NCBI RefSeq assembly: GCF_000217715.1
Contig: NC_015666.1
Location: forward strand, 3,050,270-3,114,269
DNA from: Halopiger xanaduensis SH-6
Lineage (GTDB): Archaea; Halobacteriota; Halobacteria; Halobacteriales; Natrialbaceae
Direction: 5' to 3'
Length of the DNA stretch: 64,000 bases
The first letter of the stretch is position 1; each line of letters begins with the position of its first letter. This document shows positions 4,019 to 32,677 of the stretch, piece after piece. A program made the position numbers and the translations under genes. The notes under the pieces were generated by a model that made no database searches, had not been told where the DNA came from, and saw nothing but the letters and a program-made list of their open reading frames with translations.

Positions 4019-5056
4019 TTACTGCGTCTCGCCGCCGTCGGCAGCGATCACGTCCGCGTCGTCGCTCTGACTCTGCTCAGCCTCGCGTTCGCGCTGGGTC
4101 TGCGCCTCGCGCTGGCGTTGGTAGCGAACTCGCAGGATGTTCCCGTACATCGAGAGCGCGAGCCCGATGAACAGCACGAGCACGCCGACGTTGATGGCGA
4201 TCGTGCGGAAGATGTTCCCCTCGTTGAACGCCAGCGTTTCGGGGATCGGGTAGCCGCCGTAGGTCATGCTGCCGGCCAGCACGCCGGCGATGCCGATGAT
4301 GACCATGGCGCCGAACAGGTTCGTCGCCCACTTCCAGGTCGGCTTCAGCCGCAGGTTCTCGATCCCGGTAGTGTCGTAGTCGTCGGCGTCGCCGTGGAAG
4401 TTCGGCGTCTCATCCTTCGGGAGGAACGCCTTCATCTCGACCGGGTAGAAGGCCGGATGACAGGCGTGCTCGAAGGTGTGGAACATCACGCCCATGAACA
4501 TGATGATCCCGAGGAGGCCGTGGAACGCGACGAAGCCCATGGCGACCGACTGCGTGTTGTAGAAGTCGATCAGCCAGGTCTTCTGCCAGATGAGCAGCCC
4601 CGAGATCATCAGCAGGACGAGTTCGACCGCGAAGATGGCGATGACGCCCTTGCCGACGTACGACAGCAGCGGCACCTCGTCGGCCTTGTAGCCGGCGAAC
4701 TGCTTGGCGTGGGGGTGGCGCTCCTCCGCGTAGCCGAGCGCGAACTTGACGTCCTGGACGAACGCCGCGGTGTCCTGCTTGATGTCGGGAATCACGTCGC
4801 CCAGGTTCGACCGGCTCGAGGGGCGCAGCAGCATGTACAGCACCCAGAACACGGTCAGCAGCATGAGGGCGAAGCCGGCGACGCGGTGGATGGTCAGGAC
4901 CCACTCGTTGCCGCCCATCAGCTCGACGAGCCACCACAGCTCGGCGTTGAACGCGATGGAGTACCCCGTAAAGAACAGGAAGAACACGGTCAACGCGAGC
5001 AGCGAGTGGAAGATCGTGGTGACGCGGGAGAACTTCCCGTGGTCGAGGTTGGTCAC
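4019..5056 (-). CDS. Formate dehydrogenase cytochrome b subunit (FdnI/gamma-type), copy A
   Basis: This 345-residue diheme membrane cytochrome b would pass electrons from the periplasm-type Fe-S subunit to menaquinone. His17, His57, His179 and His193 lie in predicted helices with the spacing of the four heme ligands of E. coli FdnI, including the 14-residue gap between the last two. About four to five hydrophobic segments are visible, with a long loop between helices 2 and 3 (residues about 80-125). The charged tail is rich in Gln, Arg and Glu. The GTG start overlaps the stop of the upstream two-helix gene (GTGA), so it is the last gene of a tightly coupled fdhA-fdhB-x-cytb operon. The paralogue is at 31640-32677. 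Confidence 0.88.
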   Translation of the reverse strand: MTNLDHGKFSRVTTIFHSLLALTVFFLFFTGYSIAFNAELWWLVELMGGNEWVLTIHRVAGFALMLLTVFWVLYMLLRPSSRSNLGDVIPDIKQDTAAFVQDVKFALGYAEERHPHAKQFAGYKADEVPLLSYVGKGVIAIFAVELVLLMISGLLIWQKTWLIDFYNTQSVAMGFVAFHGLLGIIMFMGVMFHTFEHACHPAFYPVEMKAFLPKDETPNFHGDADDYDTTGIENLRLKPTWKWATNLFGAMVIIGIAGVLAGSMTYGGYPIPETLAFNEGNIFRTIAINVGVLVLFIGLALSMYGNILRVRYQRQREAQTQREREAEQSQSDDADVIAADGGETQ

Positions 5057-5550
5057 GCGGCGTCACCCCCGTTGGCGCGGGCGTCCTCGTCGGCGGCGGA
5101 CTCGACGCCACCGTCGGATCGAAGCTCCGACGAGGATCGCGGTCCGTCGGACCGCTCACCACCGTCGGTCGCGACGTCGGCGTCCGCTCCCGCTCGCGCG
5201 TCGGGCTCCGCACCCGCCGGCGGCTGCATTCGGTCGCCGAGCCGGCGGAAGGCCGCCCAGTGGATCGCGACCATCACGATGATGAACGCGCCCATGAGCA
5301 CGTCGGCGATGTGCAGGAGCGAGACCAACGCGTTGAGCAGCGGCTCGGTGTTGCCGGCGACCCACGCGGTACCGACGCCGCCGCCGGTGACCGTCGGCCG
5401 GATGCGTAGGAGCGTCTGGTAGCTCGGCCCCTGCACGAGCCAGATCGAGCCGACTGCGACGGCGGCGCTCGCGACCGCGGCGATCCAGAACGCCGCGGTG
5501 TCCGAGAGCCCTCCAGTTTCGGCGTCCGTCGATGTATCTTGCTCGCTCAT
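5053..5550 (-). CDS. Two-helix membrane protein of the formate dehydrogenase operon, copy A
   Basis: The product has 165 residues. Helix 1 is at about residues 16-37 and helix 2 at about 74-96, separated by a conserved loop (LLRIRPTVTGGGVGT and AGNTEPLL). A low-complexity acidic tail follows, rich in Asp, Ala, Gly and Ser. It is translationally coupled on both sides: its ATG overlaps the fdhB stop (ATGA) and its stop overlaps the cytochrome b start (GTGA). The same loop and helix 2 appear in the paralogue at 30798-31643, whose N-terminus is much longer. It is probably an accessory membrane subunit of the dehydrogenase; no family name is recognised. Confidence 0.8.
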   Translation of the reverse strand: MSEQDTSTDAETGGLSDTAAFWIAAVASAAVAVGSIWLVQGPSYQTLLRIRPTVTGGGVGTAWVAGNTEPLLNALVSLLHIADVLMGAFIIVMVAIHWAAFRRLGDRMQPPAGAEPDARAGADADVATDGGERSDGPRSSSELRSDGGVESAADEDARANGGDAA

Positions 5551-6227
5551 GATTCGAACAGTTGGGCGTCCTCCTTTCCGAAGATGATCTCCATCGCCTC
5601 GTCGTTGAAGAACGGCTGGCTGTCGCGCTTCTCGAGTTCGTCGGCGATCTCGCCGGCCGTTCCGACCAGCAGTGCGTTGGTCGCACACTCGTCGACGCAG
5701 GCGGGCCCTTGGTCGGCCATCTGGCGCTCCTTGCAGCCGGTACACTTCTCCATGGTGCCGCCGGTACCGACGATTTCGGCCGAGCCCTCGTCCTCGTTGG
5801 GGAACTGCGGCGCGCCGAACGGACAGGCCGAGAGACAGTATTGACAGCCGACGCAGAGGCTCTCTTTGAGGTCGACGAACCCGTCGTCGCTCTTCTGCAG
5901 GGCGTCGGTCGGACAGACCGAGACGCAGGGCGCGTTCTCGCAGTGGAAACACTGCATCGGCACGTTCGTCTCGCCGGGGTTGGCGCCGTCGGCCAGCGCC
6001 GCGGACTGGCGACCGTTGTAACCCTCGTCGGCCTCCTGCCCCTCGAGCATGTTGACGATGTCGATACGCTCGCGGTCCGGGCCGACGTCCCAGGTGCGTT
6101 TACAGGCGACGACGCAGCCGCCGCAGTCGATACACGCTTCCACGTCCGGGAAGAGGCGCATCCCTTCCCCGGTGCTCATGTTCCCGTCGCTGATTCGCGC
6201 GGTCTGCTGTTGTTCGTTCGTTGACAT
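5547..6227 (-). CDS. fdhB: Formate dehydrogenase iron-sulfur subunit (four 4Fe-4S clusters), copy A
   Basis: This 226-residue ferredoxin-type subunit links the catalytic subunit to cytochrome b. It has 16 cysteines in four blocks: CIDCGGCVVAC (Cys32, 35, 38 and 42), CFHCENAPCVSVC, CVGCQYCLSAC, and CTGC followed by PACVDEC. This is the FdnH/DmsB/NrfC pattern. No signal peptide is present, so export would be by hitchhiking with the Tat-bearing FdhA. No C-terminal membrane helix is seen, unlike E. coli FdnH, which may be why the operon carries a separate two-helix protein. It lies 6 bases after fdhA and overlaps the next gene by 4 bases. Confidence 0.92.
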   Translation of the reverse strand: MSTNEQQQTARISDGNMSTGEGMRLFPDVEACIDCGGCVVACKRTWDVGPDRERIDIVNMLEGQEADEGYNGRQSAALADGANPGETNVPMQCFHCENAPCVSVCPTDALQKSDDGFVDLKESLCVGCQYCLSACPFGAPQFPNEDEGSAEIVGTGGTMEKCTGCKERQMADQGPACVDECATNALLVGTAGEIADELEKRDSQPFFNDEAMEIIFGKEDAQLFES

Positions 6228-6233
6228 TCTTTG

Positions 6234-9200
6234 TTAGTCGTCTGCGAGCATGTCGTGCTCCCGCACGTCGTACTGTTTCTGGAGTCCGAGTCCCGCCTCG
6301 TCCTGCGGGAAGTCGATGAACTCCATGTCGAGTTCCTCGATCCGTTCGGGCGTGGCCTTCTCGACGCGGACCATGCCGACCTTGGTCTCCTGCATCTGGG
6401 TCTCGGCGTCGAAGCCGTGGGCGGTGACGATGTTCACGGAGTCGCCGATCGCCAGCGGCTTCGTGCCCTCGGGCCAGTCGTCGGACTTGTCCTTGCCGCC
6501 GAAGACGCCGCCCCAGTGGTACGGCAGGAAGACCTCGTCGGGGTGGGGTCGGTAGTCGACCTTCGCCTTCACGAGGATCGCGCTCTTGGCGTCGTGGGCG
6601 GAGTGGACGATGACCTCGTCGCCGCCGGAGATCCCCATCTCCTCGGCGCGGTCCGGGTGGATCTCCGCGTACATGTGGGGCTGGCGGTCGGCGGTCATCT
6701 CGTTGTTCCGCGTCTCGGAACCGCCACCCTGGTGTTCGACCTGTCGGCCGGAGGTGAGGATGACCTCGAACCCCTTCTCGTGGACCGCCTCGGTGGCCTG
6801 CTGCTGGGTCTGGCCGTTGTTCTGGTCGAGGCGGTAGACGTTCTGCTGGTGGCCGTTCGCGGGCCACTCCTCGGCGAGGTCCGGGTACGGACTCTCGATC
6901 GGTTCGCGGTGGACCGGCACCGTGTCGAGGAAGTTCCACGCGACCGCGCGCGCCTTCCCGCGACCCGTCGGCGGGTCCGGCTGTTCGACGTCGTACTGCT
7001 CCCAGAACTCCATGTCGAGTTCGTGGTCGTACTCCTCCTCGAGCGCCTGCGCCGCGTCGTAGGGCGACTGATCCGGACTCAGCGCGTACTCGACGGGCAG
7101 GGACATCTCGCTGGGGTTCGTGACGTCCTCGGGGAGCGTCGTCGTGTAGTGGGGGTACTGCGGGACGCCCTCGATCTCCTCGTCCCACCAGTCGGGCTGG
7201 TAGGGCTCGCGGAGCATCTCGAGGCCCTCCTCGCCGTGTTCGTCGTAGGTCTCCTGGAGCGGGTACTCCCGGTCGACGCCCATCGCCTCCCAGTCCTCGG
7301 GCGACGGCGCCTCGGTGCCCCAGTTGGCGCGGAAGTCGTGGCCGCCTTCGCGGGGGTCCATGTCGTCGCGCCAGATGATCGGCGTACCGGTGTGGCCCTC
7401 TCCCCAGTAGGGCCAGGGCAGCGACCAGTACTCGCCGCTGACCGGCAGTCCCTCGGAGTCGGCCCGCAGCGTCTCGGTGTTGAAGGCGTAGTCGTACTCG
7501 CGGTGTTGCTGGAGCTTCTCGGGGGGCTGCTGGTAGCCGATCGAGCGGACGCCGAGGTTGATCTCCCGGAGCGCGTCCTCGTAGGTGCTCTTGCCGTTGT
7601 GGAGCTCCTGGCCGCTCCCCCAGTCGAAGTGCTCGCCGAAGCCGAACCGGTCGGCCAGCTCCTGCATGATCTGGAGGTCGGGCTTGGAGTTGTGCGCCGG
7701 TTTCCCGGCGGGCTCGGACCACTGCACCGACCGGTGCGTGTTCGTCAGCGACCGGTAGTGCTCGTACTGGCTCGAGGCCGGCAGGAGGATGACGTTATCC
7801 TCGTCGGAGAGGGTGCCGGCGACGGCGGGGAAGACGTCGACGACGACCAGCAGATCGAGCGCCTCCATCGCCCGCTTCATCTTGTCCATCTCGTTGATGG
7901 AGTTCGCCGAGTGGCCCCAGAGGAACAGCATCTTCAGCGGGTTCGGCTGGTAGAGGTTCGACTCGTGGAGCCGCTCCTCCTGGGGGAGGGCGGCCTCGTA
8001 CCAGCGGGCGACGGTCAGTCCCGACTGGAACATCATCGACCGGGTCGTCACCTCGTTCGGTCGGTACTCGTCGCCGCCGAGGCTGTCTTCGACCTCGGTG
8101 TCGACCTGCGCGGTCGTGACGGTCTCTTCCGTTTCGCCGAGTTCCTCCATGAGGTCCTCGGGAAGCATGTCGAACCGCCCGTACATGTCGTTGAAGTCCG
8201 TGCTTCCGCTGGTCCACGGGCTCCGATCCCACACGTTAGTCCAGTGGGCCCACGACCCGGGCGAACTCACCGAGTAGTAGCCCGGCAGAATGTCGGCGTC
8301 GACGCCGAGGTCGGTCGCGCCCTGGACGTTCGCGTGGCCGCGCATGACCTGGAGGCCGCCGCCCGAGCGGGCCGCCGACCCCGAGGCGAGACTGAGCAGC
8401 GCGTACGAGCGGATGTTCTGGGTCCCGTTGTTGTGCTGGGTGCCGCCCATCGCCCACTCGATCTGGACGTTGGGCTTGTTCTCGATGATCATGTCCCCGA
8501 TCTCCTCGAGATCCTCGACGGAGAGCCAGGAGATCTCGGCGGCCGTCTCGAGGTCGTACCGGTCGAGTTCGGCGTAGGCGTCCTCCCAGCCGTTGACCCG
8601 GTCGGAGAGCATCTCCTCGTCGAGTTCGTCCTGCTCGTCGAGGTAGTAGAGCAGCCCCATCATGATCGCGACGTCCGTCCCGGGCCGCATCCGGTAATAG
8701 TGGTCGGCGTGAGCCGACGTCTTCGTATAGCGGGGGTCGATCGAGACGATCGTCCCGCCGCGGGCCTGCCCCTCGAGGATGTGCTGCATCGCGATCGGGT
8801 GGGCCTCGGCGGGGTTCTGCCCGATGATGATGTTGAGATCGAAGTTGCGGTAGTCGTTGATCGTGTTGGTCATCGCGCCGAAGCCCCACGTGTTCGCGAG
8901 GCCGGCGACGGTCGGCGAGTGACAGATACGGGCCTGGTGGTCGACGTTGTTCGTGCCCATGAACGCCGCCAGCTTCCGGAAGGCGTAGGCCTCCTCGTTG
9001 GAGTGGTGGGCGCTGCCGACCATCATCGTGCTGTCGGGCCCGTACTCTTCGGTGACCTCCTGCCAGGTCTCGGCGATCTCGTCGTAGGCCTCGTTCCACG
9101 TGATCTTGCGCCACTCGCCGTTTTCCTTCTTCAGCGGGTGCTTCAGTCGGGTCGGCGAGTGCTCCGTCTCGAGGATGCTCGCGCCCTTCGAACAGAGCGA

Positions 9201-9467
9201 GCCGTTGTTGATCGGGTTCTCCTTCCAGGGTTCCTGCCCCACGAAGGAGTCGCCCTCCTTGACGGCCTTGAACCCGCAACCGACGGAGCAGTAGTTACAG
9301 ATGACTTTCGCCGTTTCAGCGTCGTCCTCGACGCCGGTCGATTCGCTCTGGCCGTCGCTGAGAACGCGCCCCGTTGCCCCGCTGCCGAGGATTGTGGCCC
9401 CGGCGAGGGCGGACGCCTTCATGAACGACCGCCGGTCGAGATCCAGCGTAACTGGTTCCGTGCTCAT
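6234..9467 (-). CDS. fdhA: Formate dehydrogenase catalytic subunit, Tat-exported, Cys-type, copy A
   Basis: This 1077-residue bis-MGD oxidoreductase of the FdnG type would oxidise formate outside the membrane. The Tat motif DRRSFMKA is followed by a hydrophobic h-region (residues about 17-33). The N-terminal 4Fe-4S ligands are Cys57, Cys60, Cys64 and Cys92. The Mo/W ligand is Cys182, followed by His183 (ARICHSPT), the Cys-His pair typical of formate dehydrogenases, so it is a Cys and not a Sec enzyme. The MGD-binding C-terminal domain includes TSGRQVEHQGGGSETRNNE. The start was set at ATG 9467 because it places the Tat motif near the N-terminus; the frame extends 14 codons further. The substrate is inferred from family and operon. 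Confidence 0.9.
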   Translation of the reverse strand: MSTEPVTLDLDRRSFMKASALAGATILGSGATGRVLSDGQSESTGVEDDAETAKVICNYCSVGCGFKAVKEGDSFVGQEPWKENPINNGSLCSKGASILETEHSPTRLKHPLKKENGEWRKITWNEAYDEIAETWQEVTEEYGPDSTMMVGSAHHSNEEAYAFRKLAAFMGTNNVDHQARICHSPTVAGLANTWGFGAMTNTINDYRNFDLNIIIGQNPAEAHPIAMQHILEGQARGGTIVSIDPRYTKTSAHADHYYRMRPGTDVAIMMGLLYYLDEQDELDEEMLSDRVNGWEDAYAELDRYDLETAAEISWLSVEDLEEIGDMIIENKPNVQIEWAMGGTQHNNGTQNIRSYALLSLASGSAARSGGGLQVMRGHANVQGATDLGVDADILPGYYSVSSPGSWAHWTNVWDRSPWTSGSTDFNDMYGRFDMLPEDLMEELGETEETVTTAQVDTEVEDSLGGDEYRPNEVTTRSMMFQSGLTVARWYEAALPQEERLHESNLYQPNPLKMLFLWGHSANSINEMDKMKRAMEALDLLVVVDVFPAVAGTLSDEDNVILLPASSQYEHYRSLTNTHRSVQWSEPAGKPAHNSKPDLQIMQELADRFGFGEHFDWGSGQELHNGKSTYEDALREINLGVRSIGYQQPPEKLQQHREYDYAFNTETLRADSEGLPVSGEYWSLPWPYWGEGHTGTPIIWRDDMDPREGGHDFRANWGTEAPSPEDWEAMGVDREYPLQETYDEHGEEGLEMLREPYQPDWWDEEIEGVPQYPHYTTTLPEDVTNPSEMSLPVEYALSPDQSPYDAAQALEEEYDHELDMEFWEQYDVEQPDPPTGRGKARAVAWNFLDTVPVHREPIESPYPDLAEEWPANGHQQNVYRLDQNNGQTQQQATEAVHEKGFEVILTSGRQVEHQGGGSETRNNEMTADRQPHMYAEIHPDRAEEMGISGGDEVIVHSAHDAKSAILVKAKVDYRPHPDEVFLPYHWGGVFGGKDKSDDWPEGTKPLAIGDSVNIVTAHGFDAETQMQETKVGMVRVEKATPERIEELDMEFIDFPQDEAGLGLQKQYDVREHDMLADD

Positions 9468-9744
9468 ATTGATTAACAGGATATTCGGAACGACATTATC
9501 GTCTCCCACACACCGATGATTGCCATCCGGTAGGGCTCTCCGCGAGTATAATGAATCTTTGGAATTTATACTTCTTTTTCGGATTAATGTATGGAGAATT
9601 AACCGTTCTCGACTATCTTACTCCGAGTAACGAAACTACCCTTGCTTCTATCGATAGAATAGTTGTTAGAATGCAATAATTTGAGTTCGAAAACCGAATT
9701 CCGTCACGCAACATCTTTTACCGTCCGGCGGTTTCGGCTCGCTA
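9468..9744. promoter_or_regulatory. Divergent promoter region of FDH module A
   Basis: An AT-rich 277-base spacer between fdhA (minus) and the Hdr/MvhD-like gene (plus). A TTTTAC box at about 9717-9722 lies 23-28 bases before ATG 9745. On the other strand, GATAATG at about 9494-9500 lies some 27-33 bases before the fdhA ATG. Both fit leaderless initiation. The equivalent spacer in module B is 26474-26737. Confidence 0.5.
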
Positions 9745-11904
9745 ATGAACGTCGGCTCTTTCGTCTGTTCGTGCGCTGGCACCTGCGACATCGATCTCGA
9801 GGCGGCGCGCGACGGGATCGACCACGTCGACGTCGCCGCCAGTTCCCGGATGCTCTGTCAGGACGGGCTTCCCGCCATGGAACACGTCATCGAGGAGCAC
9901 GACCTCGATCAACTCATCGTCACCTGCCCGGAGGCGCCGGCCCAGGAGAAAATCACCGAAACGGCCACCGAGAACGGACTGCACCCCGACGCGGTCTCGT
10001 TCGTCGACCAGCGCGAGGGCGCGGGCTGGGTCCACGGCGAGTCCGAGGCGACGGCCAAGACCGCCCGGATGGTCAACGCGCGCTACGCGGGCTTAGAACA
10101 CGAGTCGGTCCACCAGTCGCTCACTCACGAGGCCGGCGACGCCGTCGCGGTCGTCGGCGACGCCGAAACCGCCGCCGCGCTAGCCGAAGACGCGGACGTC
10201 ACCCTGATCGCGAACGGGAACGACTACGCTGAGTCCGACTACGACCTCGAGGACGTGACGATCGAGCGCGGCCGCGTCGCCGCGGTCGACGGCAAATACG
10301 GCGAGTTCGAGGTCACCGTCCGCGCGCGGGTCACCGAGGACTGTATCTCCTGCATGAAATGCGTCCGCGAGGCGCCCGAGGGGACGGTGACGCGCTACCC
10401 CGTCGATATCGACCCCGACGTCGACGACGAGTCGCTGGCCGAGTGCTGTCCGACCGACGCGATCGAACTGGACGGCGTCGAACGCACGCTCGAGGTCGAC
10501 CAGGTCGTCCACCCGTCGGCGACGGAGTCCGCACGCGGCGGCCGAATCGGCTTCTACACCGCCCCGATCACGTCCGAGAAGATCGCCTCGATCGAACGCC
10601 ACCTCGGCGGGCTTACCAAACCCGAGTTCCTCGACCTCGAGATGGACGTCTGTGCAGCTGGCGACTCGAGCCGCGTCGGCTGTAACGAGTGCGTCGAGGC
10701 CTGCCCGCACGACGCGGTCGAGCGCTCGAGCATTGACGAGGTCGAGTTCAACACGGAACTGTGCCAGAACTGCGGGGCCTGCACCAGCTCCTGTCCGACC
10801 GGCGCGACGCAACTGCGCGAACCCTCGAACGAGCGCATCGCCCGCGAGGTCGAGGAACTGCTTACCCCCGACGAGGTCGAGGGTAGCTGGATTCCGGGCC
10901 GGGGCGGCTCCGGACTCGAGGAGTCCGTCGTCGCCTTCGTCTGCTCGGAGCGAGCGGCCGATGCGCTGGCCGAGTACGGTCGGCTCGCGGCGTCCGGCCG
11001 CGCCGACGTCGAGTACCCGCCGATCCTCCCCGTGCAGGTCAACTGTACCGACACCGTCGGCGAGGCCCACGTCATGCACGCGCTTGCAGCCGGTGCGGAC
11101 GGCGTCGCGATCGTCGGCTGCGGCGGCGACTGTCTGCACTCCGGCCCCGACCCGAAGGCCGACCTCGTCCGTCGGCTCGACGTCGCCACGGACGACCTCG
11201 GGCTCGGCAAGCGCGTGGAGTTCTTCGCTCCCGATCCGAACGAGCCCGAAGCGTTCGTCGAGGACGTCTCGACCTTCGTCGTCGGCCTCGAGGAGTCGCC
11301 GATTCCCGAAGGCGAGCACGAGGCGACCGGTGAGATCGACGATCCCGAGCGCGAGAACCCCGCGTTCGACAGTCACGGCTGGACGTTAGAAAGCGTCCGT
11401 GCGATCCTCGAGCACGTCGAGCCCGAGCGCGAGGTGATCCGCGGCCTGAAGGACTTCGGCCGCGTCGAGGTCGACGACGCGTGCACGCTCACGCCGACGT
11501 GTTCGACGCTCTGTCCGACCGACGCCTTGCGTCGCACGCAGACGGGACTCGAGTTCAACCACGAGCGCTGCGTGAACTGCGGGCTCTGCGAGGACGGCTG
11601 CGTAGAGAACGCGATCACGGTCGAGGAAGGGCTCGATCTCTCCCTGCTGCCCGAGAACCGGGAGGACGACGTCGCGGACGAGGAAGACGCGGACCCCGCG
11701 TGGACGCAGGTCTTCGAAGGCTCGATGCTCGAGTGCAAGAACTGCGGCACGGAGTTCACGAGCGAGCGGTCGGCCGAACGGATCAAGGGCGAAGTCGGCG
11801 ACCTCGTCTCGGGGATGGCCCCGAACGCGGACGGCAGCATCTTCGACTACTGTCCGGAGTGCCGCTCGATGCTGCTGTACAGCCGAAACGGAGGTGACGA
11901 CTGA
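9745..11904 (+). CDS. HdrA/MvhD-like multi-cluster iron-sulfur fusion protein, copy A
   Basis: A 719-residue soluble electron carrier. Order: N-terminal cysteine motif (Cys8, 10, 14: FVCSCAGTC) and a degenerate HdrA-like region whose FAD-binding glycines are lost (AVVGDAETAAA); a ferredoxin block (CISCMKC and CCPTDA, residues about 198-235); two clusters (GCNECVEACP and CQNCGACTSSCP, about 310-350); an MvhD/FlpD-like 2Fe-2S domain (VGCGGDCLHSG, about 395-510); another ferredoxin pair (CSTLCP and CVNCGLCEDGC, about 585-630); and a C-terminal CxxC...CxxC zinc-ribbon-like end. In methanogens MvhD joins hydrogenase or formate dehydrogenase to heterodisulfide reductase. Here it is divergent from fdhA and overlaps torD by one base. 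The exact partner is unknown. Confidence 0.8.
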   Translation: MNVGSFVCSCAGTCDIDLEAARDGIDHVDVAASSRMLCQDGLPAMEHVIEEHDLDQLIVTCPEAPAQEKITETATENGLHPDAVSFVDQREGAGWVHGESEATAKTARMVNARYAGLEHESVHQSLTHEAGDAVAVVGDAETAAALAEDADVTLIANGNDYAESDYDLEDVTIERGRVAAVDGKYGEFEVTVRARVTEDCISCMKCVREAPEGTVTRYPVDIDPDVDDESLAECCPTDAIELDGVERTLEVDQVVHPSATESARGGRIGFYTAPITSEKIASIERHLGGLTKPEFLDLEMDVCAAGDSSRVGCNECVEACPHDAVERSSIDEVEFNTELCQNCGACTSSCPTGATQLREPSNERIAREVEELLTPDEVEGSWIPGRGGSGLEESVVAFVCSERAADALAEYGRLAASGRADVEYPPILPVQVNCTDTVGEAHVMHALAAGADGVAIVGCGGDCLHSGPDPKADLVRRLDVATDDLGLGKRVEFFAPDPNEPEAFVEDVSTFVVGLEESPIPEGEHEATGEIDDPERENPAFDSHGWTLESVRAILEHVEPEREVIRGLKDFGRVEVDDACTLTPTCSTLCPTDALRRTQTGLEFNHERCVNCGLCEDGCVENAITVEEGLDLSLLPENREDDVADEEDADPAWTQVFEGSMLECKNCGTEFTSERSAERIKGEVGDLVSGMAPNADGSIFDYCPECRSMLLYSRNGGDD

Positions 11905-13583: not shown

Positions 13584-14357
13584 CTATGACAGTTCCCAGC
13601 CCGCTTTCTCCGCGGCGGTCTCGAGCGGGATGTACTCCCAGTCGGCGGCCTCGGCGATGGCCTCGCCGCGCTCGCCGGTGCCGATGACGACCATCCGCTC
13701 CGCGTAGAACATCGACGTGCGGTCGATCTCTGAGAGGCGCTCGCTCGGATCCGTTCCGCTGCCGGTGAAAAAGTCGGCGTCGAGGCCGTGATCGCGCTGG
13801 AACTTCGTGATCGCGGGCGTGCCGACGTCGCCGACGATCCCGATCCAGTCGCTCCAGCCGTAGGCGTCCGCGAAGACGGCCGCCGGATGCTCGAGCTGCT
13901 GGAGCGCCCGATACGTGAAGGCGATCGTCATGTCGTCGACGCCGCCGCCGTGGGGCCCCTCCGCGGCCGATCCTGCGGGGCGAGGTTCCGTCGGTTCGGC
14001 CGCGCCCGGCTCCCCACCGTCGTCCGCGCTCGAGCCCGCTCCAGCACCGGCGCCGGCGCCGCCGGACGCCGCCGGAATCCCGACCGGCTTCCCCGACTCC
14101 GCTGTCGGAACGTGGGGCGCCGGCTGCGAGTTCTGGTCGACCGCGTTCCCGTCGGCGCCGGTCGCGTCCGCGGTGTCCGCGGCATCCGCGCCGTCGCCGT
14201 CCTCGTCGTCCGGCTTCACCGCCGGCCCGGTCGTCCGCGGCGGCTCGTTCTCGGGATCGCCCTCGCCGCGCCAGAACCAGTCGCCGGGGTTCGATTCCTC
14301 CTCCGGTTCGTCGTCGTCGCCGACGTCGAGTTCGTCGAGATCGATTCGTTCGGTCAC
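13584..14357 (-). CDS. Hypothetical protein with disordered N-terminus, coupled to the AOR homologue
   Basis: The product has 257 residues. Residues 1 to about 135 are low-complexity (Asp, Glu, Ala, Gly, Pro) and probably disordered. Residues about 140-257 form a compact domain starting DDMTIAFTYRALQQLEHPAAVF and containing GWSDWIGIVGDVG, KFQRDHGL, MVVIGTGERGEAI and WEYIPLETAAEKAGWEL. I do not recognise it. Its GTG start overlaps the TGA of the upstream AOR-family gene (GTGA), so the two are co-translated and probably work together. No counterpart exists in module B. Confidence 0.75.
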   Translation of the reverse strand: MTERIDLDELDVGDDDEPEEESNPGDWFWRGEGDPENEPPRTTGPAVKPDDEDGDGADAADTADATGADGNAVDQNSQPAPHVPTAESGKPVGIPAASGGAGAGAGAGSSADDGGEPGAAEPTEPRPAGSAAEGPHGGGVDDMTIAFTYRALQQLEHPAAVFADAYGWSDWIGIVGDVGTPAITKFQRDHGLDADFFTGSGTDPSERLSEIDRTSMFYAERMVVIGTGERGEAIAEAADWEYIPLETAAEKAGWELS

Positions 14358-16147: not shown

Positions 16148-16297
16148 GTAGTCTCGTCCCAGTAACGGCCGGACGGAACTAAAAGTGTCTCGTTTTCCGA
16201 GATTGATTGTCACGCGCGTTTATAGCTTCTCGCGGCTACGGCCGCCGGATGTGGACCGTGTCGCTTCCGGCTACGGAACGTAATGTCGGTTCGATTA

Positions 16298-23633: not shown

Positions 23634-24266
23634 TCAGGCCATCTGCACCGCGATCTCTTCCTCGAACGCGATATAGCCCTCGAGCACGTCAGCGACGGCC
23701 GCGTAGAACGGTTCGTCGGTCTGCTCGCGGACGTCCGCGGCGAAGTCCGCGATCCACTCCGAGAGGTGTTCCTCGTGGAAGACCCGCTGGTAGCCGAACG
23801 TCTCCTCGTAGCCCTCGCGCTGTCGCCGGATCAGGTTCCGGAGGAAGGCCAGTTCGACGGCGACGTAGTCGTTCTCCTCGGGGTAGTCCTCGGGCGGCGA
23901 CCAGCCGGCCGCGCCGTAGCTGGCCTCGACCTCGGCCAGCCCCGCCCCGCGGAAGTCGGTGTCCTCGCGGTAGTAGGTCTCGTGGGGGAGGATCGGCGGC
24001 CGCGGGCCGACGAACAGCCGCGTGAACTCGCGCTCGAGATCCTCCTGGACGGCGTCGGGATCGCGGTTCTCGTTTTCGGCGATGAACGAATCCAGTCGCT
24101 CGAAGCCGCGGTCGAGTCGGTCGTCGACGCTGCCCTCCGGGAACGTGATCTCGTCGCCCAGCAGCGTCGCGACGAACGCCGCCGTCGGCACGTCCGCGAA
24201 CGCGTCGATCAGGAAGTTCACCAGCTCGAGGCGGGCCTCGTAGAGCGCGCGCTGATCGACGCTCAT
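23634..24266 (-). CDS. TorD-family molybdoenzyme chaperone, copy B
   Basis: A 210-residue helical protein, same length as copy A, with FTRLFVGPRPPILPHETYYRED and YGAAGWSPPEDYPEEND. It is the likely Tat-proofreading and cofactor-insertion chaperone for the second FdhA. The ATG overlaps the stop of the upstream Hdr/MvhD-like gene (ATGA). Its 3' end touches the stop codon of the convergent 65-aa gene, so the two messages must overlap at their 3' ends. Confidence 0.85.
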   Translation of the reverse strand: MSVDQRALYEARLELVNFLIDAFADVPTAAFVATLLGDEITFPEGSVDDRLDRGFERLDSFIAENENRDPDAVQEDLEREFTRLFVGPRPPILPHETYYREDTDFRGAGLAEVEASYGAAGWSPPEDYPEENDYVAVELAFLRNLIRRQREGYEETFGYQRVFHEEHLSEWIADFAADVREQTDEPFYAAVADVLEGYIAFEEEIAVQMA

Positions 24267-26473
24267 TGGCGCTCACCTCCGGCACCAGTACCGTCGGTGC
24301 CACCGGCGCCGCCGGCTCCGTCCGTCCCGCTCGGGCCGCCGCCGCGGTCGTACAGAAACTGCGCGCGACAGTTGTCGCAGTAGTCGAAGACGCTGCCCGC
24401 CGCGCTCGGTGCGACGCCGGCGACGATCCCGCCGACCTCGCCCTCGATCTTGCGGGCGGTGCCCTCGCTGGCGAACGGCTCGCCGCAGTTGCGACACTCG
24501 CGCATCTCGCCGTCGTGAACCGTGACCCAGGCCGGCTCCGACGCGTCGTCCCGGCGCTCGGGCAGCAGCGACAGGTGAAGGCCGTCGTGCATCGTGATCG
24601 CGTCCTCGACGCAGCCCTCCTCGCAGGTCCCGCAGTTCACGCAGCGCTCGTGATTGAACTCGAGGACGGCCCCCTCCTCGTCGCGCCGGATCGCGTCGGT
24701 CGGGCAGAGCGTCGAACACGTCGGGGTGAACGTACAGCCGTCGTCGACGGCCATCCGACCGAAGTCCTTCAGGCCGCGGATCACCTCGCGCTCGGGCTCG
24801 ACGTGCGCTAAGATTGCGCGGACGCTCTCTAAGGTCCAGCCGTGACTGTCGAACGCGGGATTCTCGCGCTCGGAATCGTCGGTCTCGCCGGTCGCCTCGT
24901 GCTCGCCCTCCGGCACCGGCGACTCCTCGAGTTCGACCGCAAACGTCGAGATCGCTTCGACGAACGCGCCCGGTTCGTCGGGATCGGGCGCGAAGAATTC
25001 GAACCGCTCACCCAACTCGAGGTCGCGGCTCGCCCGATTCAGCCGGTCGACGAGGTCGGCCTTCGGATCGGGGCCGGAGTGGAGACAGTCGCCGCCGCAG
25101 CCGACGATCGCCACGCCGTCGGCGCCGCAGGCCAGCGCGTGCATCGCGTGGGCCTCGCCGACGGTGTCGGTGCAGTTCACGTGCACGGGGAGAATCGGCG
25201 GGTACTCGACCTCGGCCTTTCCCGCGGCGGCGAGGCGGCCGTACTCCCGCAGGGCGTCGTCGGCCTCCTCCGAACAGACGAACGCGACGATCGGGGTCTC
25301 GAGGTCCGATCCCGAGCGGTTCAGCAGCCAGCCGCCCTCGTCGTCGGTCCGGCGGAGGAGTGCCTCGACTTCGCGGGCGATGCGCTCGTTCGACGGTTCC
25401 CGGAGTCGCGTCGCGCCGGTCGGACAGGCGCTGGTGCAGGCCCCGCAGTTCTGGCAGGCGTCCTTGTGAAATTCGACCTCGTCGATCTTCGTGCGTTCGA
25501 CGGCGTCGTGCGGACAGACCTCGACGCACTCGTTGCAGCCCGGCTGGCTCGAGTCGCCGGCCGCGCAGACGTCCATCTCGAGGTCGAGGTGGTCGGGCTT
25601 CTCGAGGCCGCCGACGTGTCGCTTGACTGCGGCGATCGTGGCCGCGTCGATCGGCGCGGTGTAGAAGCCGATTCGGCCGCCCCGCGTTTGCCGGTTCGCG
25701 GCGGGGTAGACGACCTGATCGACCTCGAGCGTACGTTCGACGCCCTCGAGGTCGATCGCGTCGGTGGGACAGACCTCGGTCCACGCGCCGTCGGGTGCGT
25801 CGGGGTCGATGTCGACCGGATAGCGCGTCACGGCGCCGTCGGGGCCCTCGTGGACGCATTTCATACAGGAGATACAGTCCTCGGTGACGCACGCCTCGAG
25901 CCGGATCGTAAAGTCCCCGTAGCGGCCGTCGACGCCGACGACGCGGCCGCGCTCGATCGTCACGTCGTCCAGATCGGCGGCCGAATCGACGTACTCCCGC
26001 CCGTCGGCGATCAGGGTCACGTCGGCGTCCGCGGCCAGCGCTGCGGCGGTCTCGGGGTCGCCGACGACCGCGACGCTGTCGCCGGCTTCCTGGGAGATCG
26101 ACCGAGGAATGGACTCGGCCTCGAGACCAGCCTGACGGGCGTTGATCATGCGGGCGGTCTTGGCCGTCGCGCTGGCCTCGTCGTGGACCCAGCCGGCGCC
26201 CTCGCGCTGATCGACGAACGAGACCGCGTCGGGGTGGACGCTCCGCTGCTCGGCGACGCGCCGAAGTTTCCGCTGGACGCGCTCCTCCGGGCAGGTGACG
26301 ATCACCTCGTCGAGGTCGTACTCTTCGATCACCCGCTCCATCGCGGGCAAGCCGTCCTCGCACAGCAGGCGCGAACTCGCCGCCACGTCGACGCCCTCGA
26401 TCCCGTCCCGAGCACCCTCGAGGTCGATATCGCAGGTGTCGGCGCAGGAACAGACGAAGCTTCCGACGTTCAT
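24263..26473 (-). CDS. HdrA/MvhD-like multi-cluster iron-sulfur fusion protein, copy B
   Basis: 736 residues with the same architecture as copy A: N-terminal FVCSCADTC; a degenerate nucleotide-binding stretch (AVVGDPETAAA) without the HdrA GxGxxG; CISCMKC; GCNECVEVCP and CQNCGACTSACP; an MvhD-like domain with VGCGGDCLHSG; CSTLCP and CVNCGTCEEGC; and a C-terminal CRNCG...YCDNC pair. It ends in a Gly/Thr-rich tail absent from copy A. It is divergent from fdhA of module B and coupled to torD. Probably an electron carrier between the dehydrogenase and a cytoplasmic acceptor; since FdhA is exported, a direct complex is doubtful. Confidence 0.8.
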   Translation of the reverse strand: MNVGSFVCSCADTCDIDLEGARDGIEGVDVAASSRLLCEDGLPAMERVIEEYDLDEVIVTCPEERVQRKLRRVAEQRSVHPDAVSFVDQREGAGWVHDEASATAKTARMINARQAGLEAESIPRSISQEAGDSVAVVGDPETAAALAADADVTLIADGREYVDSAADLDDVTIERGRVVGVDGRYGDFTIRLEACVTEDCISCMKCVHEGPDGAVTRYPVDIDPDAPDGAWTEVCPTDAIDLEGVERTLEVDQVVYPAANRQTRGGRIGFYTAPIDAATIAAVKRHVGGLEKPDHLDLEMDVCAAGDSSQPGCNECVEVCPHDAVERTKIDEVEFHKDACQNCGACTSACPTGATRLREPSNERIAREVEALLRRTDDEGGWLLNRSGSDLETPIVAFVCSEEADDALREYGRLAAAGKAEVEYPPILPVHVNCTDTVGEAHAMHALACGADGVAIVGCGGDCLHSGPDPKADLVDRLNRASRDLELGERFEFFAPDPDEPGAFVEAISTFAVELEESPVPEGEHEATGETDDSERENPAFDSHGWTLESVRAILAHVEPEREVIRGLKDFGRMAVDDGCTFTPTCSTLCPTDAIRRDEEGAVLEFNHERCVNCGTCEEGCVEDAITMHDGLHLSLLPERRDDASEPAWVTVHDGEMRECRNCGEPFASEGTARKIEGEVGGIVAGVAPSAAGSVFDYCDNCRAQFLYDRGGGPSGTDGAGGAGGTDGTGAGGERQ

Positions 26474-29700: not shown

Positions 29701-30112
29701 ACTCGACGTCGTCGGCGGCGACGATCACGTCATCGTGGAGTCGGCCGACAAGGGCGCGATCCTCGTGAAGGCGAAGGTGACCAACCGCGTCAACGACGAG
29801 GAGATCTTCCTGCCCTACCACTGGGGCGGCGTCTTCCACGGCGAGGATCTGACGCCGAACTGGCCCGACGGCACCGAACCGCTCGCGATCGGCGAGAGCG
29901 CGAACATCATCACGCCGAGCGGCTTCGACGCCGAGACCCAGATGCAGGAGACGAAGTCCGGCGTGGTCCACGTCCAGAAGGCTACCCAGTCGGTGGTCGA
30001 CGACTACGACATGGAGTTCATCGACTACCCGCAGGACGAGCACGGCCTCGGCGCGCAGAAACAGTACGACGTCCGCGAGTGGGACATGTACGAGGGAGGT
30101 GAGCAACTGTGA
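26738..30112 (+). CDS. fdhA: Formate dehydrogenase catalytic subunit, Tat-exported, Cys-type, copy B
   Basis: 1124 residues. Tat motif DRRSFVKA with an h-region to about residue 38. Cys61, Cys64, Cys68 and Cys96 bind the 4Fe-4S cluster, and Cys186-His187 (ARICHSPT) is the Mo/W ligand pair. The order of domains is as in copy A. The main difference is a stretch of about 65 residues (about 442-506) that is almost all Glu, Asp, Gly and Ala, where copy A has a shorter, less acidic loop. It overlaps fdhB at GTGA. The enzyme probably acts outside the membrane with the fdhB and cytochrome b products that follow. Formate as substrate is inferred. Confidence 0.9.
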   Translation: MSAGEDPVTIDLDRRSFVKASALAGGVFLGGGAAGHALGGTQEEQGDDGVPEGEETSKVICNYCAVGCGFKAVKDGNSFVGQEPWFENPINNGSLCSKGAGILETEHSPKRLKHPMRKEDGEWRRVTWDDAFREIADTWEQTIEEYSRESVMFLGSAHHSNEAAYASRKFAAFMGTNNVDHQARICHSPTVTGLANTWGFGAMTNTINDYRNFDLLIILGQNPAESHPIAMQHILEGQARGGTIVSIDPRYTKTSAHADYFYRLRPGTDVALVMGLLNYINEQDELDDEFLAGRVMGWPDVESELEQYDLETVSDITWIDQGDLEEIGDLIIENKPQIQVEWAMGGTQHNNGTQNIRSYAIFSLATGSAARSGGGLQVMRGHANVQGATDLGVDASILPGYYGVDAPGSWEHWADVWDRSPWTSGSTSFEELYEKFELLPEDVWEGTQTPAEVEAGGAGVDVEEEAAGEGGEGEADVQGEDEEAEGDEDAGDEEEEEEGLQAEAPIDDVEERSMMFQIGLTVARWYEAALEQGDRLLESNLYQPDPLKMAFFWGHSANSISEMDKMKQAMENLDLLVVVDVFPAVAGTLPDDADVLLLPASSQYEHVRTVTNSHRSVQWSEAVAEPAHNSKPDLQIMQELAQYMGFGEHFDWGNGPEVHNGRSSYEDALREINLGVRSIGYQQPPEKLQQHHEYDWAFNADDLRAQNTGTPVDGDYWSLPWPYWGDDHPGSPIIWTKEADPRDGGHDFRENWGVRAPTAEEWNDLEIDKEYPLQETYDEHGEDGLDLIAESFEAPWWDDQEIEGVPSYPGYSTVLPDDPTNPSTQTTPVEMALDEEQSVYDAAQAVAEQYDDIGVDPSAYEEYDNAQPDPPTGRGKARAVVWNFLDTVPVHREPVESPRPDLVEEWPANGEQRNFWRLDQNNATVQQRATEAVHTELGSDSQNGRTVILTSGRQVEHQGGGAETRNNEYTADRQPHMYAEISPALAEALDVVGGDDHVIVESADKGAILVKAKVTNRVNDEEIFLPYHWGGVFHGEDLTPNWPDGTEPLAIGESANIITPSGFDAETQMQETKSGVVHVQKATQSVVDDYDMEFIDYPQDEHGLGAQKQYDVREWDMYEGGEQL
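28064..28257 (+). other. Acidic low-complexity insertion within fdhA copy B
   Basis: These bases encode about 65 residues dominated by Glu, Gly, Ala and Asp, placed between the conserved LLPEDVW and SMMFQIGLTVARWYEAAL blocks. Copy A has a shorter, partly unrelated loop here. It is a surface loop by position and composition; no function is known. Confidence 0.7.
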
Positions 30113-30801
30113 CTCAAGATCAAGGCAACTCGGCCGGTCAGGTGATGAGCCAGGGCGTGATGAGTACCGGCTCGGGGATGCGGATCTTCCCCGACGTCGA
30201 GGCCTGTATCGACTGCGGCGGCTGCGTCGTCGCCTGCAAACGCACCTGGGATCGAGAAATCCAGAACCAGCGCATCGACATCACGACCATGGCCGAAGGG
30301 GTCGCCGGCCCGCAGGGCGAAAACGCCGACAAGACCGGCCGCCTCGAGGCCGGCGAGAACCCCGGCGAGACGAGCCTGCCGATGCAGTGTTACCACTGCG
30401 AGAACGCGCCCTGCGTGTCGGTCTGCCCGACCAACGCCTTACAGAAGGACGACGACGGCTTCGTGGCGGTCCACGAGGACCTCTGCGTCGGCTGCCAGTA
30501 CTGCCTGTCGGGCTGCCCGTTCGGCGCGCCGCAGTTCCCCGACAGCGACGACGGCTCCGCGCAGATCGTCGGCACCGGCGGCATCATGGACAAGTGTACC
30601 GGCTGCCGCGAGCGCCAGGAGGCCGGAAAGGGACCGGCCTGCGCCGAGGAGTGCGCCACCGACGCCATCCTCGTCGGCGGCGCCGGCGAGATAGCCGACG
30701 AACTCGAGCAACGGGACAGTCAGCCGTTCTTCAACGACGAGGCCATGGAGGTCATCTTCGGCGCCGAGGACGCCCGGCTCTTCCACACTGATCAGCAATG
30801 A
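30109..30801 (+). CDS. fdhB: Formate dehydrogenase iron-sulfur subunit, copy B
   Basis: 230 residues with four cysteine blocks: CIDCGGCVVAC, CYHCENAPCVSVC, CVGCQYCLSGC, and CTGC with PACAEEC. It begins with GTG overlapping the fdhA stop and ends in ATGA overlap with the two-helix gene. As in copy A, it has no signal peptide and no C-terminal helix. It would carry electrons from FdhA to the cytochrome b. Confidence 0.92.
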   Translation: MTQDQGNSAGQVMSQGVMSTGSGMRIFPDVEACIDCGGCVVACKRTWDREIQNQRIDITTMAEGVAGPQGENADKTGRLEAGENPGETSLPMQCYHCENAPCVSVCPTNALQKDDDGFVAVHEDLCVGCQYCLSGCPFGAPQFPDSDDGSAQIVGTGGIMDKCTGCRERQEAGKGPACAEECATDAILVGGAGEIADELEQRDSQPFFNDEAMEVIFGAEDARLFHTDQQ

Positions 30802-31643
30802 GCGACGAACGATCACCGGACGACAACAACCACGATCGAGACGACCGCGCTGCCGGGTCGCCGGGGCCGCCGGATTCGGACACGGACACGGACTCGAGTT
30901 CGAGCGCCCCGACCGACGACGGGCGAGTAGATGAATCGACTGCAGACGACGCTCCGGGCGCGGCGGACAGCGGTGAGCCGAGTGAAACGAGGCGATCCAC
31001 ATCAGATCCCAGATCTGAGGGCGGCAGTCCGAGCGACTCGCACGAGGGCCGCCACGAGCAGGCTGACGGCGGATACAGCGAGGAACGCACGCCGCCGGAG
31101 CAGCGCGACCGCGAGTCACCACCCGAATCCGGGACGGAACCCGGACCCGAGGAACCGGGCGAACCCGCCGGTCAACCGTCGACCGGCGGCCTCGCCGACC
31201 GGGCCGCGTTCTGGCTCAGCGCCCTGTTCGGGCTGGCGCTGGCCGTCGGCTCCGTCGCGCTCGTCTCCGGCCGCGCGCCGTTCTTCGAGGACGTGCTGCG
31301 GATCCGCCCGTCCGTCGAGGGCGGCGGCGTCGGCGCCGACTGGGTCGCCGGCAACACCGAACCGGTCCTCGAGGCGATGATTACCGTCGTCCACTTCGCG
31401 GACGTCATTATGGGAATCTTCATCCTCGTGATGGTGTTCGTCCACTGGGCGGCGTTCCGCCGGCTGGGCGCGCGGATGCGGCCGCCAAGCGGGACGCAAC
31501 GGCGGGAAGCCGCCGCGGCGACGGACGGCGGCGTCAGCGAGAGCGGTGGCGACACCGATGCCGACGGCGACGGCGCCGGTGCTGACGATGCTACGACCGA
31601 GGACCGAGCCGGCGACGACGGCCCCGGAGGTGATCGGCCGTGA
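30798..31643 (+). CDS. Two-helix membrane protein of the formate dehydrogenase operon, copy B
   Basis: 281 residues. The N-terminal part of about 130 residues is a disordered, very polar Asp/Ser/Glu/Arg/Pro sequence not present in copy A. Then come helix 1 (about 136-157), the loop VLRIRPSVEGGGVGADWVAGNTEP, helix 2 (about 195-218, with VHWAAFRRLGARM) and an acidic tail. Loop and second helix match copy A closely. It is coupled to both neighbours by 4-base overlaps. Probably a membrane accessory subunit. Confidence 0.8.
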   Translation: MSDERSPDDNNHDRDDRAAGSPGPPDSDTDTDSSSSAPTDDGRVDESTADDAPGAADSGEPSETRRSTSDPRSEGGSPSDSHEGRHEQADGGYSEERTPPEQRDRESPPESGTEPGPEEPGEPAGQPSTGGLADRAAFWLSALFGLALAVGSVALVSGRAPFFEDVLRIRPSVEGGGVGADWVAGNTEPVLEAMITVVHFADVIMGIFILVMVFVHWAAFRRLGARMRPPSGTQRREAAAATDGGVSESGGDTDADGDGAGADDATTEDRAGDDGPGGDRP

Positions 31644-32677
31644 CCAACCTCGACCACGGCAAGTTCTCGCGGGCCACCACGATGTTCCACTCGCTGCTGG
31701 CGCTGACCGTGTTCGTCCTGTTCTTCACGGGCTACGCCATCGCCTTCAACACGGAGCTGTGGTGGCTCGTCGAGCTGATGGGCGGCAACGAGGGCGTGCT
31801 CTCGATCCACCGCGCGGCCGGCTTCGCGCTGATCGCGCTGACCGGATTCTGGGTGCCGTACGTGCTGCTTCGCTCGAGCAGTCGGTCGAACTTCCGCTCA
31901 GTGCTGCCGAGCCCGGACGACGCGCGGGCGTTCATTCAGGACGTCAAGTTCGCGCTCGGCCGGGCCGACGAGCGCCACCCGTCGGCGCGCCAGTTTGCGG
32001 GGTTCAAGGCCGACGAGGTGCCGCTGCTGTCGTACGTCGGCAAGGGGGTCATCTGGATCTTCACCGTCGAACTGATCCTGTTGATGATCTCGGGGCTGCT
32101 CATCTGGCAGAAGACCTGGCTGATCGACTTCTACAACTCGCAGTCGGTCGCCATGGCCTTCGTCGCGTTCCACGGCCTCCTCGGGATCATCATGCTGATG
32201 GGCGTGATGTTCCACACCTTCGAGCACGGGTTCCACCCCGCGTTCTACCCCGTCGAGATGAAGGCGTTCCTGCCGAAGGGGATGACGCCGAACTTCCACG
32301 GCGACCCCGACGAGTACGACACGACCGGCATCGAGCGCCTCCGGCGCAAACCCTCGTGGCGGTGGGCGACCAACGTCGTCGCCGTGCTCGTCGTCGTCGG
32401 TATCGTCAGCGTGATGATGGCCAGCCTCGAGTACGGCGGCTACCCGGTGCCCGACACGCTGGCGTTCGGCGAGGGCAGCGTCCTCCGGACGATCGGGATC
32501 AACGCCGGGATCTTCGTGTTGCTGCTCGGGTTGTTGCTCTCAATGTACGGCAACGTCCTTCGGGCGCGGTACCTGAGCCAGCGCGGCGAACAGCGAGCGA
32601 CGGGAGCGGCGACGGACGGGGGCGAGCCGAGCGCGGCGAGTCGAGCCGACGACTCGGCCGATCCCGGCGACGACTGA
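31640..32677 (+). CDS. Formate dehydrogenase cytochrome b subunit (FdnI/gamma-type), copy B
   Basis: 345 residues, exactly the length of copy A, with the heme-ligand histidines at the same positions (FHSLLAL near 17, IHRAAGF near 57, AFHGLLG near 179 and FHTFEH near 193). The GTG start overlaps the stop of the two-helix gene. It ends the module B operon; a T5 run at 32690-32694 just after the stop may help termination. Confidence 0.88.
   Translation: MTNLDHGKFSRATTMFHSLLALTVFVLFFTGYAIAFNTELWWLVELMGGNEGVLSIHRAAGFALIALTGFWVPYVLLRSSSRSNFRSVLPSPDDARAFIQDVKFALGRADERHPSARQFAGFKADEVPLLSYVGKGVIWIFTVELILLMISGLLIWQKTWLIDFYNSQSVAMAFVAFHGLLGIIMLMGVMFHTFEHGFHPAFYPVEMKAFLPKGMTPNFHGDPDEYDTTGIERLRRKPSWRWATNVVAVLVVVGIVSVMMASLEYGGYPVPDTLAFGEGSVLRTIGINAGIFVLLLGLLLSMYGNVLRARYLSQRGEQRATGAATDGGEPSAASRADDSADPGDD

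Follow-up and report, generated by a model that had tools for sequence, protein, structure and literature searches.

The large iron-sulfur fusion protein encoded beside each of two formate dehydrogenase (FDH) modules in Halopiger xanaduensis SH-6 is best read as a kind of molybdoenzyme maturation ferredoxin. It belongs to a real and well-conserved family that is wider than first supposed and is not a bifurcating system, and it is probably a NapF-like cytoplasmic polyferredoxin that acts with a TorD-family chaperone in the maturation of an exported Mo/W-bisPGD enzyme. This reading follows from the coupling of the fusion gene to torD, a change of enzyme partner with torD retained, a core shared with bacteria, and neighbouring Fe-S carrier and Moco genes. 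The window analysed is the whole stretch of 64,000 nt of NC_015666.1 (GCF_000217715.1; positions 3,050,270-3,114,269, forward strand) from a host genome of 4.36 Mb, and contains two modules with the following genes.

4019..5056, minus strand: cytochrome b561-type membrane subunit 1 (PF01292, 9.2e-19)
5053..5952, minus strand: small membrane-protein ORF of module 1, overlapping the end of fdhB 1
5547..6227, minus strand: fdhB 1, multi-cluster ferredoxin subunit
6234..9509, minus strand: fdhA 1, Tat-exported formate dehydrogenase catalytic subunit with the active-site motif ARICHSP
9745..11904, plus strand: fusion protein 1, an HdrA/MvhD/HycF-like polyferredoxin of 719 aa
11904..12536, plus strand: torD-family chaperone 1 (PF02613, 4.2e-28), overlapping the stop codon of fusion gene 1
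23634..24266, minus strand: torD-family chaperone 2 (PF02613, 2.3e-29), overlapping fusion gene 2
24263..26473, minus strand: fusion protein 2, 736 aa
26738..30112, plus strand: fdhA 2, Tat-exported catalytic subunit
30109..30801, plus strand: fdhB 2
30798..31643, plus strand: small membrane-protein ORF of module 2, with no Pfam match
31640..32677, plus strand: cytochrome b561-type membrane subunit 2 (PF01292, 9.3e-21)

The two fusion proteins are paralogues with 73% identity. In both modules fdhA, with its Tat signal, is divergent from the fusion gene and is followed by fdhB, the small ORF and the cytochrome b561 gene, and the fusion gene overlaps the start of torD by 1 base in module 1 and by 4 bases in module 2. 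The earlier note had described just such a coupling to torD and an exported FDH with a cytochrome b. A hydrophobic segment in the C-terminal half of the ORF at 5053..5952 is conserved between the modules, and the real start of this ORF is probably further in than called. As no signal peptide is seen on the fusion protein, it is presumably cytoplasmic and could not easily face the exported enzyme, which bears out the view that a role other than that of the methanogen proteins is needed. An aldehyde ferredoxin oxidoreductase (AFOR) gene (13584-16213, minus strand) lies about 1 kb from torD 1 and overlaps a DUF7124 gene, and 42 of 60 haloarchaeal loci have an AFOR gene in the vicinity of the fusion gene.

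Along fusion gene 1 the following parts can be distinguished.

9745..10104, plus strand: HdrA N-terminal domain (residues 1-120), with cysteines 8, 10, 38 and 61 (66 in relatives)
10129..10620, plus strand: shortened remnant of the HdrA FAD domain (residues 129-292), FAD glycine motif absent
within 10129..10620, plus strand: four-cysteine site inserted in this remnant (cysteines 200, 203, 206 and 235)
10651..10794, plus strand: ferredoxin module (residues 303-350), its eight cysteines invariant in archaea and bacteria
10912..11322, plus strand: MvhD/FlpD domain (residues 390-526), with cysteines 400, 434, 459 and 463
11410..11883, plus strand: HycF-like module (residues 556-713), with ferredoxin cysteines and a ribbon (664, 667, 703 and 706)

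The proposal that the 719- and 736-residue proteins join HdrA and MvhD parts and have lost the FAD motif of HdrA agrees with both profile and structural comparisons. The profile search for MvhD/FlpD (PF02662) gives a match to residues 395-516 in fusion proteins 1 and 2 (E 2.6e-18 and 5.9e-17), which is not a chance match because the scores of 66.7 and 62.3 bits are both above the curated cut-off of 22.3. HdrA/HdrA2 models match the N-terminus and the ferredoxin blocks in pieces, far below the family cut-offs (98.9, 76.2 and 65.2 bits vs 1100, 1300 and 1400), so that the protein fails as a member of the HdrA family itself. The FAD-binding glycine motif is absent from the fusion family, where the HdrA position reads VAVVGDAET or similar (VAVVGDxE and VVGD variants), and only 163 of the 428 residues of the HdrA FAD domain align, with more than half of the domain missing. 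The cut-off of TIGR00402 (NapF) is missed by fusion protein 2 (38.4 vs 102.2 bits), PF02634 (FdhD) has no match in the fusion protein, and domain-profile searches detect no sulfurtransferase domain in either copy. An AlphaFold2 model from a 49-row haloarchaeal alignment (mean pLDDT 82, pTM 0.79) was compared using Foldseek and VIA-align. Residues 1-374 of the model align with HdrA at Z 14-15 over 320-361 residues and an overall rmsd of 7.6-10.4 A, a high value which indicates that the HdrA-like domains match better than their arrangement. Residues 390-526 align with MvhD (Z about 15, rmsd 2.3-2.9) and residues 556-713 with HycF of formate hydrogenlyase (Z 8-9), the match of residues 570-713 reaching Z 9.0 and rmsd 3.1 over 125 residues with the ribbon included. 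The HdrA N-terminal cluster domain and the HycF-like C-terminal module go beyond what the earlier note had recognised.

Because the flavin is lost, the fusion protein would act as a one-electron relay and not as a bifurcating enzyme. Bifurcation with HdrBC was considered and is rejected on the loss of the FAD motif and the lack of any HdrB above cut-off in the H. xanaduensis genome (best match 21.8 bits vs 345), and neither a methanogen-like FDH partnership nor flavin-based bifurcation fits the data. The many clusters per chain also fit an electron relay to another partner.

The conservation of the cysteines bears on this point. Thirty cysteines are invariant in all 49 haloarchaeal sequences, and C400, C434, C459 and C463 of the MvhD site are kept in 49 of 49 main-clade haloarchaeal members, with the last three aligning with MvhD cysteines and the set fitting a predicted [2Fe-2S] site. 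The fourth N-terminal ligand is found at position 61 in 23 of the 49 sequences, at 66 in 26 and at both in none, and appears shifted by five residues within residues 60-66 (window 9922-9942). When bacteria and distant haloarchaea are brought into a 10-row alignment (identity to the first row 22-73%), 19 core cysteines stay invariant in every row and belong to the two ferredoxin modules and the C-terminal four-cysteine ribbon, while the MvhD, N-terminal and inserted sites vary between rows. Bacterial and distant haloarchaeal members have lost the MvhD-site cysteines despite the same gene neighbourhood, and the MvhD part therefore cannot be the shared function. Residue 583 (window 11491-11493) is threonine in main-clade haloarchaea and cysteine in the bacterial and distant members, where it takes second place among the cysteines of the first C-terminal ferredoxin motif; judging from the alignment, the cluster at this motif may be altered or three-cysteine-bound in main-clade haloarchaea. 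A function in electron transfer, in which the fusion protein links a cytoplasmic donor or acceptor (ferredoxin, an NADH enzyme and a complex I-like partner were considered) with FDH or the quinone pool, including by reverse electron transfer, would make use of the conserved main-clade MvhD site and of modules, MvhD and HycF, that carry electrons in HdrABC-MvhAGD and formate hydrogenlyase. However, FdhA carries a Tat signal and comes with dedicated fdhB and cytochrome b subunits, the genome has no HdrB above cut-off, the MvhD and N-terminal sites are lost elsewhere in the family with the neighbourhood unchanged, and the same protein type is found with different kinds of anchor, which together make such a function unlikely.

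Across the class, 242 haloarchaeal genomes were searched with the fusion protein and FdhA (the latter at E 1e-100), giving a fusion homologue in 67 and FdhA in 66. Both are present in 65 genomes, the fusion protein alone in 2, FdhA alone in 1 and neither in 174 (Fisher p 1.8e-55, a value overstated as related genomes are not independent), so that the survey of fusion protein against FDH named in the earlier note, here limited to haloarchaea, finds the two mostly together; with the PF02662 match given above, neither result that the note had set against its proposal is seen. Sixty fusion loci were also inspected, from a set that shares species with the genome survey, and the counts of the two are not summed. 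A molybdoenzyme catalytic subunit is present in 59/60 of these loci, torD in the fetched stretch in 57/60, and torD adjacent on the same strand in 56/60. The three loci without torD in the stretch (L044, L046 and L063) have as partner of the fusion gene a second FDH type (identity 43-45%), for which an NrfD-type anchor is confirmed in L063, and by coordinates torD lies about 2 kb past this FDH, just beyond the stretch. The sole genome with FdhA and torD and without the fusion gene (G129, checked by profile and locus) indicates that the second FDH type can sometimes do without the fusion protein. At the Natrialba swarupiae locus (L158, L088) the fusion match is missing ~93 residues at its N-terminus and torD is only partly matched, and this copy is probably decaying; in L120, L155, L164 and L166 in-frame stops occur within the aligned stretch of the fusion gene. 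Fusion homologues are also present in small haloarchaeal genomes that probably represent the anaerobic formate-respiring Halodesulfurarchaeum, of which Halodesulfurarchaeum formicicum grows on formate (PMC5437934).

The two genomes with no close FdhA (G160 and G213) both carry a Natronorubrum-type fusion copy. In G213, at the second locus of G029 and in Natronorubrum bangense, the fusion gene is found with torD, NrfD and a PhsA/ArrA-like Tat enzyme, and the G160 locus is reduced to the fusion gene and a portion of torD. The plasmid cluster of N. bangense (L100:1318-15588) is flanked by the arsenic genes arsR, arsD and arsA, and it is possible that the cluster is an arsenic respiration module. 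A role of the family with FDH only is rejected, as the Natronorubrum-type copies accompany the PhsA/ArrA-like enzyme. The torD gene is constant while the partner varies between FDH with cytochrome b, the second FDH type, and the PhsA/ArrA-like enzyme with NrfD, a pattern more in keeping with a helper of the catalytic subunit than with a component of a single electron chain.

The bacterial survey, by tblastn on plasmid records that are almost all from Proteobacteria, identifies as full-length homologue the '4Fe-4S binding protein' of proteobacterial FDH3 clusters, at 22-25% identity. FDH, torD and DUF3306 genes are present in 8 of 8 annotated bacterial loci inspected (a ninth, L099, carries no annotation). 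In three Roseobacteraceae a gene for an Mrp/NBP35-type Fe-S carrier ATPase lies closely downstream of the homologue, and in other bacterial loci mobA, mobB, moeA-like or fdhD genes are nearby. Among the neighbours of the torD family, a 2015 survey lists a 'fer4' gene and gives no function for it (PMC4464133). In the FDH operon of a Variovorax plasmid, an 83-residue ORF (L096:14820-15071) is labelled as a predicted CAE-1 beta-lactamase, a label that is likely spurious. The suggestion that aerobic halophiles have an electron-transfer system of their own, so far undescribed, is not upheld, given the homologues in proteobacterial FDH3 clusters and in probable anaerobic Halodesulfurarchaeum, the association with a non-FDH molybdoenzyme, and an MvhD site that is not family-wide.

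The FdhD and FdhE proteins are the standard assembly factors for formate dehydrogenases. FdhD (PF02634) is found neither in the H. xanaduensis genome nor in any of the 242 haloarchaeal genomes, the positive controls being E. coli, M. jannaschii and others; another FdhD model applied to 24 genomes at a loose limit gives chance-level matches only, and FdhE is likewise found in 0 of 242. Yet 66 of the genomes carry FDH-type catalytic subunits, the Cys-His signature of FDH, ARICHS[TP], occurs in 110 catalytic subunits of the loci, and those FDHs that have been characterised require a sulfido ligand (PMC10609526). According to a 2023 review, FDH genes often occur in halobacteria without fdhD, which raises the question by which route the cofactor is inserted and sulfurated (PMC10609526). 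The absence of FdhD in halobacteria is thus no new finding; the present analysis adds its extent and a linked pair of candidate genes. Replacement of FdhD by the fusion protein with TorD, in the insertion of Mo/W-bisPGD and the sulfuration of haloarchaeal FDH before export, would account for the linkage of these two accessory genes and could employ the extra, fifth N-terminal cysteine C14, kept in 47 of 49 sequences. It is nevertheless quite improbable, as several bacterial homologue clusters also hold fdhD, no sulfurtransferase domain is found, and the family accompanies a non-FDH enzyme too.

In the favoured maturation reading, TorD would hold the apo-catalytic subunit prior to Tat export, and the polyferredoxin would give low-potential electrons and/or Fe-S clusters to the apo-enzyme, completing its [4Fe-4S] or Mo/W cofactor before export. 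Here we infer that the fusion protein touches TorD or the apo-enzyme directly, and we likewise infer the chemical step; the protein itself descends from an HdrA-MvhD-type protein, with loss of the flavin. In Rhodobacter the exported NapA depends for its Fe-S assembly on NapF, a cytoplasmic four-cluster protein, and NapF binds NapA in E. coli, where napF deletion has little effect, so that the precedent is mixed (PMC10609526); HydN and YsaA raise the dye-linked activity of FDH-H (PMC6004506). The literature search found no study of the fusion protein itself and no biochemical result for any family member. Against a maturation role are the genome that lacks the fusion gene (G129) and the copies in L103, L116 and L122 that stand apart from FDH and torD, both of which are elsewhere in the same genomes. 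The many cysteine sites and the tight coupling to a chaperone gene could also indicate a redox or oxygen sensor that governs export or folding via TorD, with clusters that are regulatory only, and one haloarchaeal FDH is reported to be expressed only anaerobically (PMC6176080); about eight metal sites, however, exceed the need of a sensor, and no DNA-binding or signalling domain is found, leaving this role very improbable. Of the roles offered in the earlier note, cofactor or Fe-S maturation with TorD is therefore favoured, whereas electron transfer to quinol or another partner is less supported. The fusion gene and torD form one gene pair that tracks FDH almost 1:1 and makes the question of FdhD-less maturation testable, a likely role is offered for a large family whose only annotations are '4Fe-4S binding protein' and 'hydrogenase iron-sulfur subunit', and parts of bifurcating methanogen complexes are seen to be reused here without the flavin.

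Compared with known systems, residues 1-374 of the fusion protein have the N-terminal domain and C-terminal ferredoxin in common with HdrA/HdrA2, which keep the FAD domain and motif, whereas the fusion protein has lost the motif and more than half of the domain. Residues 390-526 share fold and cysteines with MvhD/FlpD, but this part sits inside a longer chain with no hydrogenase nearby. The C-terminal module shares its fold and ribbon with HycF; unlike HycF, it is found outside a hydrogenase complex and scores below the NCBIfam cut-off. NapF resembles the fusion protein in being a multi-cluster ferredoxin of the cytoplasm whose gene accompanies those of a Tat-exported molybdoenzyme and its signal-peptide chaperone, although it is much smaller and its chaperone partner is NapD, not TorD. 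The '4Fe-4S binding protein' (fer4) of FDH3 clusters has full-length homology, the same ferredoxin and ribbon cysteines and, likewise, torD and a Tat-exported FDH as neighbours; in contrast to the main-clade haloarchaeal fusion protein, the bacterial members lack the MvhD cysteines, have kept the cysteine at 583 and in many cases are without the N-terminal or inserted site, and their clusters hold DUF3305/DUF3306 and often fdhD.
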